Shown: piece by piece, positions 41,101 through 46,225 of the stretch
How positions within the stretch are numbered: the stretch's first letter is position 1
Layout of the letters: each line of letters starts with the position of its first letter
Source: a virus
Length of the DNA: 56,824 bases
Reading direction: 5' to 3' (one strand)
IMG/VR virus record: IMGVR_UViG_3300023172_000035
Location: 1 to 56,824 of that record
The notes under the pieces: model-generated
What the model was told of the DNA's origin: nothing
The model's input: only the letters and a program-made list of their open reading frames with translations
Databases searched by the model: none
Program-made: the position numbers and the translations under genes

Positions 41101-44100
41101 CTTCGTTTACAGTGTTTCTATTTTCCTCAAATATTTTGTATATCCTATCTGTTATTTGAAACTTTGGTTTATATGCAAATGCTGCACCATTTACATTAGG
41201 TGTGCCGTCTTCTAATATATCTAACACAACATCAAATCCATTTTCTAATTCTTCTTTACTCGGCATATTATCTTTTTTCATTTTATCAAAGACAGCTTTA
41301 TTAATAACACGCTCACCAAATTTATTAGTTGTAACTAAAGATTCAGCTTCGTTTATAGAATTTTGAGTTATACCTTTACTTTTAAATAAAGCATAGAAAG
41401 CTAACAGCTCACCAGCTTGAGTTAGTTCATCATTGGTAGGACCATCAGCATCTATTAATCCTGCACTTAATTTATCAAGAATTTTATTCTTTAGAGTGTG
41501 AGTAAACTTCGTCATATCTTGATAGTTTTGCTGGTACATTCTTGTTCTTGCTGTTTGACCTTGGAATAGAGCAAAGATTTTAGATAGCCCTTCACTACGC
41601 AAAGCAATGTTATCTAGTGTCTGTAATTTTTCTAACTGTTTACCAAACCACTTAGCTACATCCTTAGGTGAATCACTATCATATAATTTTTTACCTTTTT
41701 GTTTTGCTTTATCAAAGAAAGATTTGAAGTTTAAGATGCCAGCTGGCTCACCACTTATGTTTATCATTTGATTTGCTAATGATTTACCAGCTACAGATGT
41801 AGATGACTCTACATAGTAACGACCATAACTGCTTTCGTTTCTTATTCTTTCTATATTCTTTGCCATTTGACGTACCGTTACAACTCCACTACCGCCTGTA
41901 CGTAAGTTCTTACGAGATTGATATACTAAATATCTTGTCATCTCATCACTGAAAGTCATAAAAGGTATGTAATCTTTACCAGAACCAAATGCTCTACTTA
42001 TAAAGTTTTTAATAGCATTCCAAAATCTTGCAAGTATGTGTGAATCAACGTGAGCTGCATAATCAGCTAAAACTTCTTCTATAGCCTCATATCTTTCTTC
42101 ACCATTATTCATACGTATATTTGCTTTTGCTTTTATAGAAGGGTCACTTTCATATATGTCATCAAGAATTAGTTTTAATTCTCCTTTAGGTACAAACGCA
42201 CTAAACCCAAAATGTCCTAATGCTTCATGAGCTATAACACTACGAAGTGTTTGTTCGTCTTTAATGAAGTCTGTGAATATTATTATCTGATCACTAAAAG
42301 AATATCCTAACGCATTGACAGTAGCAAAATCTTCTCTAGCTGCAACTGCTCTATCGTATAATTTAGGATTAGTATCTCTTAAATCATCTCTGTTTTTAAC
42401 TACAGTAACTTTAGGTTTTGTCTCAAGTTTTTGTAGTACTTGTTTAACTATCAATTGTGCTTTACCTTTAGGTACTGGTTGAGTAATTTTTGTACCATCA
42501 TATCTATAGAAGTCACCTGTCTCAGAATCAGCCTCATCTATAATTTCATCAAACGAAGGAGCTGCTTTTTTAGACACAGGCTTAGGTATAAATCTTTGTG
42601 TCCCATCTATATTTGAAATACCTAAATTTAAATTACCTTGATTATCAAAGTAATCTTTTAGTTTAACCCCGTTCATCATAAACTCTGGGTTTGCTTGGTC
42701 AAATAAATCTTCTATATCTATAATACTACGAACTTTTTTACCTTTGTTAGCACCTTTAGTAACAGTTTTATTAATGATTAGATCTTTAGGTTTACCACTT
42801 ATATGACTGTCTATTAAATTAACAAGTTTTTGTGTAGCTAGCTCTTCAGTTAATATTGTAGGTTCTTGAGTTGTATCACCAACGACACCTGTAACTGGTT
42901 CTTGTGTTGCCCTCATTTCAGATGGTAGGCCTATTATTTTACCATCTCTTTTACTTATGATTGCATTTAAAGCTGAAAGTTTATCTTCAGCTATGATTGC
43001 CCAATCTGATTTAACACCTCTTGTTTGATAAGTAAGACTTCCACGTTCTGATATAACATCAATAAATTCTTCTCTTAATATGTTTAACTGTTGGTCTGAA
43101 AAGTTTGTAAGAAGTAGAAAGTCATTAACAAATTTACGTTCTGACTTACCTCCTAGTATATCTCTATTAGTATTAGGGTTTGGATTATCAGAACCATAAG
43201 CTATATCTATCATATCTCTTATAGTCTCTCTAAGCATTTGTTCATCAGAAGTAGTATTACCTTCCAACTCTTCTATTAACATTTGTTGTTCTATTAATCG
43301 TTCTGCATTTGGCAGATTTGCTTTTTGCTCATCAAACTCTCTTAAAGCTGCTGATGTATATTTACTTCTTAGTTTAGCCATGTTCATTTCAGGCCTTGTA
43401 AATGATGGGTCACTTCCAAACTGTTGTTTAAGTTCTGGTGATATAGCATCGTAACTTAAAACTGTACCTAAAGATGCCCATACGGTGGCTGGATCTCTAG
43501 TAGGTTTAGGAGGTGTTACTACACGATTTTCCCTCGCCCTATCGGTTGATTCTTGAACTTGTTCTTTGCGATCTTGCCTACCCCTTTTAAGCTGTTCTGC
43601 TTTCGATTCTTGTCTCGTAGTCGTGCTTCCAGCTTGAGCTTGTCCTTGGTCTTCTTGATCTTCTCTGGTAGTTTTAGCAACTGCTGGTTGCTCGTCTCTT
43701 TCTCGAACTCCTTCGCCACGTCTGGTCGGTTCTTGCGTAACCACCTCATCTGTGCCTTGCTCTTGAACGGCATCTTGTGTACCTCCTGTTGTTACTGCTG
43801 CAGCTGTAGCGGCAGCTTGATTTTCTAATATTTTAGTTTGTGCTTCGGCTTGTTTTACTCTTTCAGCTTCTAGTTTTTCAGCAGTTTTTCTACGTTTAGC
43901 TTCTTCTCTTTCAGCTTGTTTTAGAATTTTTGCATTTCGTTTATTTAATTCGTCTCTTTGTTTTTGCTCATTAACAATTTGTTGTAGTTTATTATCTTGT
44001 TCTGCTGTTGTAGTCATATTAGCTTCACGCCTACTAATAGCAGCTGTAACAGCTTGAAGGTCTTTATCTTCTCTTTTGGTTAATTTTTTCTTACCTACTA

Positions 44101-46225
44101 GTCTGTCTCTTTGAGCTATTAACTCTTGTTGGTCAAGAGTGCTTAAAGTTCTACCTGTTTTTAATTTATATAAATCATTGTTTATATCTGTTTCTGGTTT
44201 AACTTGAGTTTGGGACTGGCCAGAGGGAGTGCTATCGAGTAGAGGGGTTTGAGTCTTCTGACCAGCCTGTTGTACTGTTTGTAAAATCGGATTAGGTGCA
44301 GGTGCATCTACAGTTTCAGCAACATTAAAATCTGTTATGGGTGTAGGAGTAGCTGTTGTAGTTTCTATAGGTGTAGGAGTAGCCGTTGTAGTTTCGGGTG
44401 TTGTAGGAGTAGGTTGTCTTCTTCTATTTCTAGCACGACCTGTTGGTGTAAGTAAACTTCCTTGCCCTGTTGGTACCGTAGGAATTTGAACATTAGGTTC
44501 AACCGTTGCATCTTGAGTCGGTGATGCTTGTAAAGTTGTAACACCCGTATCACCAGCCACTGTAACTGGGGTTGGTTGAGCTTCTGGTGTAACCACAGGT
44601 GTAGCAACAGCAGAAGCAGTAGGTTGTGGTGCTACCCCTGTTTGATTTCTCCTAAGGTCTCTACTTCTTGATACTACTTCAGAACCAAATAATGGTATCT
44701 GTCCGCCTTTTTCTGTTTTAGGTTCATCAGTAGTTTTATCTTTATTGTTTGGCTCTGCGTCTTTGTTACCTTCTGGGTTTAATACATCAGCAACCTTATC
44801 TGTTTTAAGATTTGCAATACCACCGATAGGACCACCAATTGCAAAACCTGCTGCAAACGCATTGAGTAATCTTCTAAATGTACCAGCATCTCCCAACTGG
44901 TCTGTACCACCTAGTAATATAGATTCTTGTGCTAATTCAGTAGCACCTTCTAATGCACCACCAACTGCAATACCTTCACCAGCTCGTCTGATAAGACTCT
45001 TAGGACCACGTTTTAAAGCAGAACTACCCTTTTTAAATTTAGCTGGGTTTAAGCCTAATACTTTACTTGCTAAAAGAAATTCGGGTATAACTTCAGCCGC
45101 AGCATATGGGAACGAACCTATAAAAGCTGTGCCTCTATCACCAACACCTGTCTCTAATACTTCACCATAGATATCAGCTTGGCCTAATTGTTGACCTCCA
45201 AGTATAGATGCACCTGCTGCACCACCTATACGAGCTTGAGTTGCACCAGCTTTTTCTGCTATTTTAAACCCAGCATATTCTGCAGCTTTTCTATTCTCTT
45301 TACCCGTAAATGGATTGTTATACTTAACATCGTTTTTAACTTTTGTTGCACCAGCCATACCTGATACTTCACGAAGAAGTTTTTTCTCGGCAGTAGTCAT
45401 TGGCTGCTTTAAAGCATATTTTTTAGCAGCAGCTAATACACCTTGCTTAAATGATTCTTTGCCTGCTAGTGCACTTAAAGCACCACCGAATGCTGAGAAA
45501 GGATTCGCACCACCACCAGCTAGCCCACCAATTACACCACCAGCTAAAGCTACAACCAGAGATTCAAATATCATAGGACCTTGTTGTGCTAAGTTTGCTA
45601 CAAACCAATCTACTAATTCATTAGTTCCTTTATCAAATTTACCAGCTTCGTTTAAAAACTCTCTTTGAAATGGTTGGTTTTTATATAAATCTGTTAGTGC
45701 TTCATCAACCCACTCTTTGCCTGTCTCTTCTTTACCGTAGAATTGTAGGCCTCTACCAGTAAGTAACTTTAGATTGTCCATACCAATTTCCAAGTTTCTA
45801 AGAGCTAGTGTACCTGTACTAGGATTTTTTATATCTTGTATGTAACTAGTAAAAGTTTCTGGACTAACTCTAACCCAGTCTTGTGCTACGTCCATCGGAG
45901 CTTCAGCTGTAGGTTGTGATAAAAATTGTTTTGCATCAAGTGCTGATTGATAATCATCAATGTCAAAGGTAGCTCCATTGACAAACATCTTTTGTTTTGA
46001 TGGGCTAAATAATACTTGGGGGCCTAAGTTTACTTGTTCAGGCTCTTCAAGCTGTGATGTATCAGTAACAATATCAAGTAAAGCAGATGACTGAGCTAAA
46101 TCTTGATCTGCTTGGTTAGAGAAGTTACTAGAAGTATATGGGCTAGCTGGAATGCCAGAAGCCACAGCATCTGAAGCTGTGATATTCGCAGGTATCTGTG
46201 GTGTTAAACCTACTTTATCTACCAT
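38144..46225 (-). CDS. Giant internal virion protein with zincin-like domain
   Basis: 2693 residues, one open frame of 8 kb. Residues about 215-255 are Gly/Ala-rich and hydrophobic (VVALAGGVIGGLAGGG); about 510-690 are Pro/Thr-rich; 690-900 are Lys/Glu/Gln-rich coiled coil and low complexity, the part overprinted by 43519-43773; HEALGHFG at 1333-1340 is an HExxxH-like zincin motif; hydrophobic segments near 2165-2200 and 2395-2410 follow. Such chains are ejected with the DNA in short-tailed phages and may open the cell envelope. It ends the leftward arm. Confidence 0.65.
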   Translation of the reverse strand: MVDKVGLTPQIPANITASDAVASGIPASPYTSSNFSNQADQDLAQSSALLDIVTDTSQLEEPEQVNLGPQVLFSPSKQKMFVNGATFDIDDYQSALDAKQFLSQPTAEAPMDVAQDWVRVSPETFTSYIQDIKNPSTGTLALRNLEIGMDNLKLLTGRGLQFYGKEETGKEWVDEALTDLYKNQPFQREFLNEAGKFDKGTNELVDWFVANLAQQGPMIFESLVVALAGGVIGGLAGGGANPFSAFGGALSALAGKESFKQGVLAAAKKYALKQPMTTAEKKLLREVSGMAGATKVKNDVKYNNPFTGKENRKAAEYAGFKIAEKAGATQARIGGAAGASILGGQQLGQADIYGEVLETGVGDRGTAFIGSFPYAAAEVIPEFLLASKVLGLNPAKFKKGSSALKRGPKSLIRRAGEGIAVGGALEGATELAQESILLGGTDQLGDAGTFRRLLNAFAAGFAIGGPIGGIANLKTDKVADVLNPEGNKDAEPNNKDKTTDEPKTEKGGQIPLFGSEVVSRSRDLRRNQTGVAPQPTASAVATPVVTPEAQPTPVTVAGDTGVTTLQASPTQDATVEPNVQIPTVPTGQGSLLTPTGRARNRRRQPTPTTPETTTATPTPIETTTATPTPITDFNVAETVDAPAPNPILQTVQQAGQKTQTPLLDSTPSGQSQTQVKPETDINNDLYKLKTGRTLSTLDQQELIAQRDRLVGKKKLTKREDKDLQAVTAAISRREANMTTTAEQDNKLQQIVNEQKQRDELNKRNAKILKQAEREEAKRRKTAEKLEAERVKQAEAQTKILENQAAATAAAVTTGGTQDAVQEQGTDEVVTQEPTRRGEGVRERDEQPAVAKTTREDQEDQGQAQAGSTTTRQESKAEQLKRGRQDRKEQVQESTDRARENRVVTPPKPTRDPATVWASLGTVLSYDAISPELKQQFGSDPSFTRPEMNMAKLRSKYTSAALREFDEQKANLPNAERLIEQQMLIEELEGNTTSDEQMLRETIRDMIDIAYGSDNPNPNTNRDILGGKSERKFVNDFLLLTNFSDQQLNILREEFIDVISERGSLTYQTRGVKSDWAIIAEDKLSALNAIISKRDGKIIGLPSEMRATQEPVTGVVGDTTQEPTILTEELATQKLVNLIDSHISGKPKDLIINKTVTKGANKGKKVRSIIDIEDLFDQANPEFMMNGVKLKDYFDNQGNLNLGISNIDGTQRFIPKPVSKKAAPSFDEIIDEADSETGDFYRYDGTKITQPVPKGKAQLIVKQVLQKLETKPKVTVVKNRDDLRDTNPKLYDRAVAAREDFATVNALGYSFSDQIIIFTDFIKDEQTLRSVIAHEALGHFGFSAFVPKGELKLILDDIYESDPSIKAKANIRMNNGEERYEAIEEVLADYAAHVDSHILARFWNAIKNFISRAFGSGKDYIPFMTFSDEMTRYLVYQSRKNLRTGGSGVVTVRQMAKNIERIRNESSYGRYYVESSTSVAGKSLANQMINISGEPAGILNFKSFFDKAKQKGKKLYDSDSPKDVAKWFGKQLEKLQTLDNIALRSEGLSKIFALFQGQTARTRMYQQNYQDMTKFTHTLKNKILDKLSAGLIDADGPTNDELTQAGELLAFYALFKSKGITQNSINEAESLVTTNKFGERVINKAVFDKMKKDNMPSKEELENGFDVVLDILEDGTPNVNGAAFAYKPKFQITDRIYKIFEENRNTVNEAAKDLLESNLEAIEVEKQDILKLVRDVAENKRGIGSTVQDEAAAKAILDKYIEIYSENSTLDGVGIRYAPESQKAAERFLRDVNRALWEPKKLNDWVSGDTNEVPILERGSEGFTDVVNSLQQLHQIYSGNSTDAKKLTKIIENLLILDLKNVNNEFNAKRTIMGAYVPFTRRGEYQVTLRAFDDNGNEIELDDHTKSVLPYYQVGSKKDARDLAQGLIEDFSDTKYKFKDKNLQDVEVNLRPETSRVGESAPLASSMNLDEFTSILVRLNINLKTEQMKKVTTALTKQSDRARRSLQRSGTGGWDTDVIRSVSEHLETMSHSAGKVFYSHKLNRYTTDNKLWMGDKNKLNRLKEKMENVERTGNDDQIKIAQQQYDSYANMYRYSAGDVTGETITVYKGSGRNREAVQVKTEGEGRSYRDVASGLVDYYGQAGKIDVSTEDFLAGEVGSGFKLLTVTSQLGGSVATGMINMISMATHSVPFLATYNPKTGYGGGFGLMNSNAAILKALRNVKNLKLEQLSHVREVAAKTPEGKALQEKYGLSQDEAQVLLDATEQGVLQAAQFNALVGTARGGLMARKNLAGFVRLWMKTFSITEQLNRRTTFLAAYRLQRDKLQRAGDLKQNEIQKAAEEFALKAVNTSQGEYGMFNRPAMARGPILGLIMMYKQFVVITVELMRQLNVKEQAYMIGLIVLMSGLKGLPFADDASDLADTLMQKFGFKQATIEKQLNDFLNELAPGLSPIVMRGVLDYYLGATMSTRLGFGDLIPLTGAGKAGSDNWQETKNFFGPVFSAFEQSVATMSLLSQQGAEFIGLKDETTSWADVLKNQPFGALRGISDGFTYLNDGAVTNKEGKVLMKEASTMQTIFRFLNFYPAGATYQNDIIRMSKQTDGYVKSIKKSYTDAWVKAKINKDKKTMRYIEKEVKEHNREFRGTEFEFKNWLPSARRAHKAWSMPAVERYKKFAPKNIRPETEFLLDAYESVINDY
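43519..43773 (-). CDS. Overprinted gene inside the giant ORF (MPFKSKAQ family)
   Basis: 84 residues in another frame on the same strand as the giant gene, beginning MPFKSKAQMRWLRKNRPDV. This start matches a recurrent family of small phage proteins (MPFKSxAQxRW). AGGAGGT lies seven bases before its ATG, a near-perfect SD. The covered part of the giant protein (about residues 818-902) is low complexity. Very basic; the family's function is unknown, DNA or capsid association is plausible. Confidence 0.7.
   Translation of the reverse strand: MPFKSKAQMRWLRKNRPDVAKEFEKETSNQQLLKLPEKIKKTKDKLKLEARLRDKNRKQNSLKGVGKIAKNKFKNQPIGRGKIV

Follow-up and report, generated by a model that had tools for sequence, protein, structure and literature searches.

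The DNA analysed here, a stretch of 56,824 nucleotides from IMG/VR virus record IMGVR_UViG_3300023172_000035 (hereafter the window), carries a giant leftward ORF with a second ORF nested in its low-complexity part (Table 1). The nested ORF is complete, has its own start, and is read on the same strand as the giant in another frame: a giant codon starts one base 5' of the small ATG, which places the small gene in the +1 frame. Its 84-residue product reads MPFKSKAQMRWLRKNRPDVAKEFEKETSNQQLLKLPEK...QPIGRGKIV. Both the second same-strand frame and the AGGAGGT seven bases before its ATG had been noticed in the first-pass annotation, and both were confirmed. The G+C content of the overlap is 48.8%, versus 35.5% in the remainder of the giant. 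At its C terminus the giant matches phrog_11358 (E = 5e-45) and phrog_10089 (E = 3e-13), with a tblastn value of 9e-22; the likeness to these F116-like proteins covers 19% of the chain at ca. 25% identity, and from the annotation of the relatives the giant resembles a virion-type gene. Another ORF, of 80 codons with a TTG start, lies in the same linker region (44365-44607, minus strand).

Table 1. Features of the nested locus in the window
Feature	Coordinates	Strand	Remarks
Host giant ORF, 2,693 aa	38144..46225	-	C-terminal 520 aa resemble F116-like giant virion/'PLxRFG'/DarB-like proteins
Giant codons 818-901, low-complexity linker overlapping the small gene, QDAVQEQGTDEVV...	43523..43774	-	Third-position change suppressed; host amino acids relaxed
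Nested small gene, MPFKSKAQ family	43519..43773	-	84 codons; stop codon within coordinates; +1 frame of giant ORF
Shine-Dalgarno (SD) AGGAGGT	43781..43787	-	7 nt spacing to ATG of nested ORF

SD matches of at least 5 nt precede 23 of the 57 starts in the window phage; among random positions, 6.4% have such a match and 0.4% one of 7 nt. An SD-like match of at least 5 nt stands before the nested start in all six sequences of the window group (cluster C below, window included); the leader in one relative, L028, is AGAGGTGA. It is very likely that ribosomes start internally, at AGGAGGT-N7-ATG on the giant mRNA. The length of the nested ORF is by itself weak evidence for a gene. When the codons of the window giant were shuffled synonymously, the local frame stayed open in 2.5% of trials and a run of equal length arose somewhere in the giant in 5.1% (1.5-5.8% in the giants of relatives), figures that speak for a chance open frame in a K/E/Q-rich linker and no gene at all.

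What happens to the frame in related phages bears on this point. Relatives in IMG/VR that cover the site (L001-L005, L028, and L124) all keep the small frame intact inside the giant ORF and in the same phase; stops breaking it were looked for, and none was found. The frame, the SD-like leader, and the QPIGRGKIV end are conserved across lineages whose giants are ca. 65-70% identical, and the nested ORF can still be recognised in L028, whose giant is ca. 41% identical to that of the window. The linker of L028 is unalignable, and this relative was therefore left out of the codon comparison and its nested ORF read directly. The L028 giant gene (L028:7251-16847; 3,198 aa) is ca. 500 codons longer than that of the window, the surplus lying mainly in the linker that bears the nested gene.

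Selection on the two frames was compared in three lineages (window, L002, and L004). At host codon positions 1, 2, and 3, the overlap contains 77, 50, and 27 differences, respectively, versus 1743, 1268, and 2690 in the giant outside it, so that giant third positions account for 17.5% of differences in the overlap and 47.2% elsewhere. None of 2,442 other 84-codon windows of the giant was as low (minimum 32.7%). The third-position share was used because plain synonymous-rate windows proved unspecific: giant codons 410-480 and 680-740 also scored low, but these are slow at all positions. The first of these stretches (44786-44995 in the window) has 0.04-0.09 differences per site, with all three codon positions conserved, and one antisense frame is almost without stops in relatives; it may represent either a conserved domain or a recent exchange.

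The dNN/dNS ratio of the small frame is 0.25 (bootstrap 0.12-0.45), indicative of purifying selection on the nested frame, and the host-frame dNN/dSN ratio in the overlap is 1.44 (0.71-3.62). Constraint is thus measurable on the small protein but not on the giant linker. Small-frame ratios in three other groups of host genes are 0.13, 0.17, and 0.26. The check on synonymous sites proposed in the first-pass annotation therefore came out in favour of the nested gene, with synonymous change in the host frame suppressed, and the proposal that the linker tolerates the overlap is backed by the relaxed host-frame ratio. As far as selection can tell, the nested gene is all but certainly real. The chance-frame explanation is refuted by these conservation tests, given the features kept across lineages and a third-position suppression unique to the overlap within the giant, and has virtually no probability left. 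We infer that the nested ORF is translated from its internal start, that its product has the function discussed below, and that the linker is disordered.

The protein belongs to a recurrent small phage family, as had been proposed from its MPFKSKAQMRW start: among the matches listed there are 133 distinct members, with the MPFKSKAQ start present in nested and stand-alone copies. The family N-terminal pattern, M-P-F/I-K/R-S-K-x-Q, is present in the window protein, and in an alignment of 47 sequences (A1) residues M1, P2, S5, K6, and Q8 are invariant. The window protein had no match among PHROG profiles at E ≤ 10, and neither a direct Pfam search nor tblastn against annotated phages gave anything useful. 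Its link to phrog_1375, which is listed in PHROGs as function unknown, runs via relatives from IMG/VR: L004 scores 0.089, and stand-alone relatives score ca. 1e-5 to 1e-7. With phrog_1375 the window protein shares the N-terminal xPFKSKAQxR pattern; it differs in a C-terminal extension of ca. 40 residues, in being nested in a giant gene, and in lacking a profile score of its own. In the literature searched, no earlier description of the MPFKSKAQ peptide, phrog_1375, or nested phage genes of this type was found.

An AlphaFold2 model of the window protein contains helices at residues 6-15, 17-26, 29-33, and 43-74; the N-terminal domain is compact and helical, and most of residues 1-60 have a pLDDT above 90. 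A fold search found no similar solved structure in the PDB, and its hits among viral models were all uncharacterised phage proteins belonging to this type of family. The product would be a basic helical protein of 84 residues, a member of the MPFKSKAQ (phrog_1375-like) family. Elsewhere the domain is fused to the N terminus of longer proteins (L009:10001-13087, L041:3988-4536, and L145:2097-2837), which carry glycine/alanine-rich segments and may be virion proteins.

A degenerate form of the N-terminal pattern recovered at least 120 further loci in IMG/VR. Of the 133 distinct family ORFs among the matches listed, 91 sit within a longer frame, and the phase is identical in every case. Nesting in the window giant stands, but it is not limited to that gene: it is recurrent, and mostly found in a gene at the scaffold position. 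Clustered without masking, the host proteins all fell together because of the shadow peptide; masking of the overlap separated them. Cluster A (65 sequences, ca. 410 aa) occupies the place where a scaffold gene is normally found, flanked by a portal (phrog_6547) and a capsid-type protein (phrog_13704). Clusters B and D are giants of ca. 2,000-3,100 aa, cluster C is the window group, L044 and L072 are singleton hosts, and two short host frames (L036 and L058; under 190 aa) are doubtful. In profile comparison, the giant of MW202828.1 was linked to B, and parts of D were linked both to B and to the elemovirus giant; no link appeared between C and the B, D, MW202828.1, or elemovirus giants. Since A is yet another kind of protein, the hosts comprise at least three unrelated families. 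In L116, of the scaffold-position group, the small ORF has a shifted Arg-rich tail and the host frame is truncated, probably through a sequencing frameshift.

The mode of initiation is not uniform across the nested groups. None of the 65 cluster A starts has a 5-nt SD match, and the leader is A-rich (58% A). SD-independent initiation occurs in Bacteroidota, and the leader would fit this mode if the hosts of cluster A belong there. Among 19 matching contigs binned into GTDB genomes, nested copies occur in seven, several of them labelled Bacteroidota, in bins that may be contaminated.

A further 37 members of at most 90 aa stand alone and encode the same peptide; in L034, the small gene lies directly 3' of a D-type giant and not inside it. 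Exactly one copy was present in each of 25 records checked, most of them chosen for having a copy, so that the count speaks to the absence of duplicates and not to universal presence. In a tree of the 40-residue peptides, which are too short for events to be counted, there are 10 changes between the nested and stand-alone states versus 31 in shuffles, which suggests that several such changes took place.

The stand-alone members also bear on the possibility that the small frame is a shadow, in which the conserved element would be the giant-frame linker motif EDAVQ[EK]Q[SG]TDEV and MPFKSKAQMRW its by-product. That motif does recur in scaffold-position and giant proteins. However, the host-phase frame is closed by stops in 31 of the 37 stand-alone members (and stop-free in six), within the overlap the second positions of the small frame vary least and its third positions, which coincide with host first positions, vary most, and the host ratio there is ca. 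1.4. The shadow explanation is largely refuted already, and we regard it as extremely improbable.

For the nested gene, codon choice would keep both frames open. The host codon starts on the small-gene third base, and T at this base followed by AA, AG, or GA would therefore stop the giant; T occupies it in 3.5% of cases in nested members versus 18.1% in stand-alone ones, a near-absence by which TAA, TAG, and TGA would be avoided. The remaining frame, as read from the sequence, usually has a stop where ATG precedes an A (Met-Arg/Lys), so that a host frame is possible in one phase only. The cost to the giant chain would be small, the overlap sitting in a variable linker that accepts residues set by the small gene.

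The same +1 phase in every nested case could also reflect ribosomal frameshifting from the giant frame, yielding a chain in which the small domain follows an N-terminal piece of the giant, and fusion to the front of a longer chain in L009, L041, and L145 can be cited in its favour; yet in these known fusions the domain is N-terminal, which is the wrong end for such a model. Moreover, a stop shuts the small frame just a few codons 5' of the ATG (six in the window), the stretch before the ATG is not conserved between lineages, and inspection of the sequence showed no slippery heptamer. This very Met is the first residue of stand-alone copies, and in all cluster C copies an SD-like motif stands ahead of it. 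Frameshifting is thus very improbable, and initiation at the nested ATG remains our reading.

Gene neighbourhood gives an indication of function. Stand-alone members often adjoin the terminase large subunit gene (L008, L035, L047, L052, L060, L119, L133, and L140) or portal-like genes (L052, L071, L095, and L149), and others adjoin head genes; one 39-aa member, from a seawater phage, is flanked by a head-to-tail connector and head genes. The protein may be a small accessory factor that binds nucleic acid or the head, is produced alongside the structural proteins, and acts in head assembly or DNA packaging, a role for which this neighbourhood gives about an even chance. Small basic phage proteins often serve host takeover, regulation, or counter-defence, and in line with such a product of a real nested gene, some stand-alone copies are distant from head genes: FlowerPower gp48, which lies before a holin, and L098, which adjoins ribonucleotide reductase. 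The enrichment beside terminase and portal genes and the nesting within scaffold-position or structural genes argue against a role away from the head, which we consider possible but rather unlikely. Taken as a whole, a genuine nested gene with an internal start, encoding a helical MPFKSKAQ protein with a likely head or packaging job, is in our view a highly probable explanation of the locus.

Out-of-frame nested genes are known in phages, including lambda Rz1 within Rz and phiX174 E within D, and like the gene described here they are complete small genes with their own start, in another frame of the same strand. Those are single lineages with one host gene, whereas the MPFKSKAQ peptide is one old family found in several unrelated hosts and also standing alone. 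Either the small gene must have changed place, then, or a host frame expanded across it. The usual account of overlapping genes is that a new gene arises within an older one. Such classical overprinting, with the small gene as the newcomer, is not what we find, the small family being older and far wider than the window host gene. Because it is widespread, stands alone elsewhere, and was apparently closed over by several unrelated hosts, the direction of origin is probably reversed, the host frame having closed over an older small gene.

On this reading, the family is older than its host genes, and each phage keeps one copy, which either stands alone in the head/packaging region or has been engulfed by an adjacent late structural gene. 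One could extend this to a 'nomadic' overlapping gene, ancient and probably required, repeatedly swallowed in the same phase by unrelated late structural genes. The host frame would then be the younger of the two, and selection would favour a place among head genes because the factor and its structural partner could be produced from one message and at one site. We find the arguments for this extension evenly balanced. Gene callers discard ORFs of this kind, and a gene present in many marine phages is thus missed by standard annotation.

Cultured carriers exist. The ORF is present in all 68 Flavobacterium elemovirus records (MT497074.1 and 67 more); in MT497074.1 the enclosing gene encodes a 'structural protein' of 3,668 aa. 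The elemovirus copy is the same small ORF in the same phase inside a giant gene; it differs from the window in that no similarity could be detected between its host giant and that of the window, and in that it has no SD. The elemovirus homologue of the scaffold-position gene is without a nested copy. MW202828.1, found via its scaffold gene and not the peptide, has a single copy nested in a giant gene. The small ORF is listed in none of the elemovirus and MW202828 annotations inspected. With nested and stand-alone forms coexisting, such carriers allow direct tests of what becomes of a gene once another frame has captured it, and of the role of a conserved head-region protein with no assigned function. 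The copies of MT497074.1 (L150:3582-3707) and MW202828.1 (L155) carry a short insertion and two cysteines (K-A-C-Y ... W-D-C-K-K-W), a variant partly seen in L118 as well.
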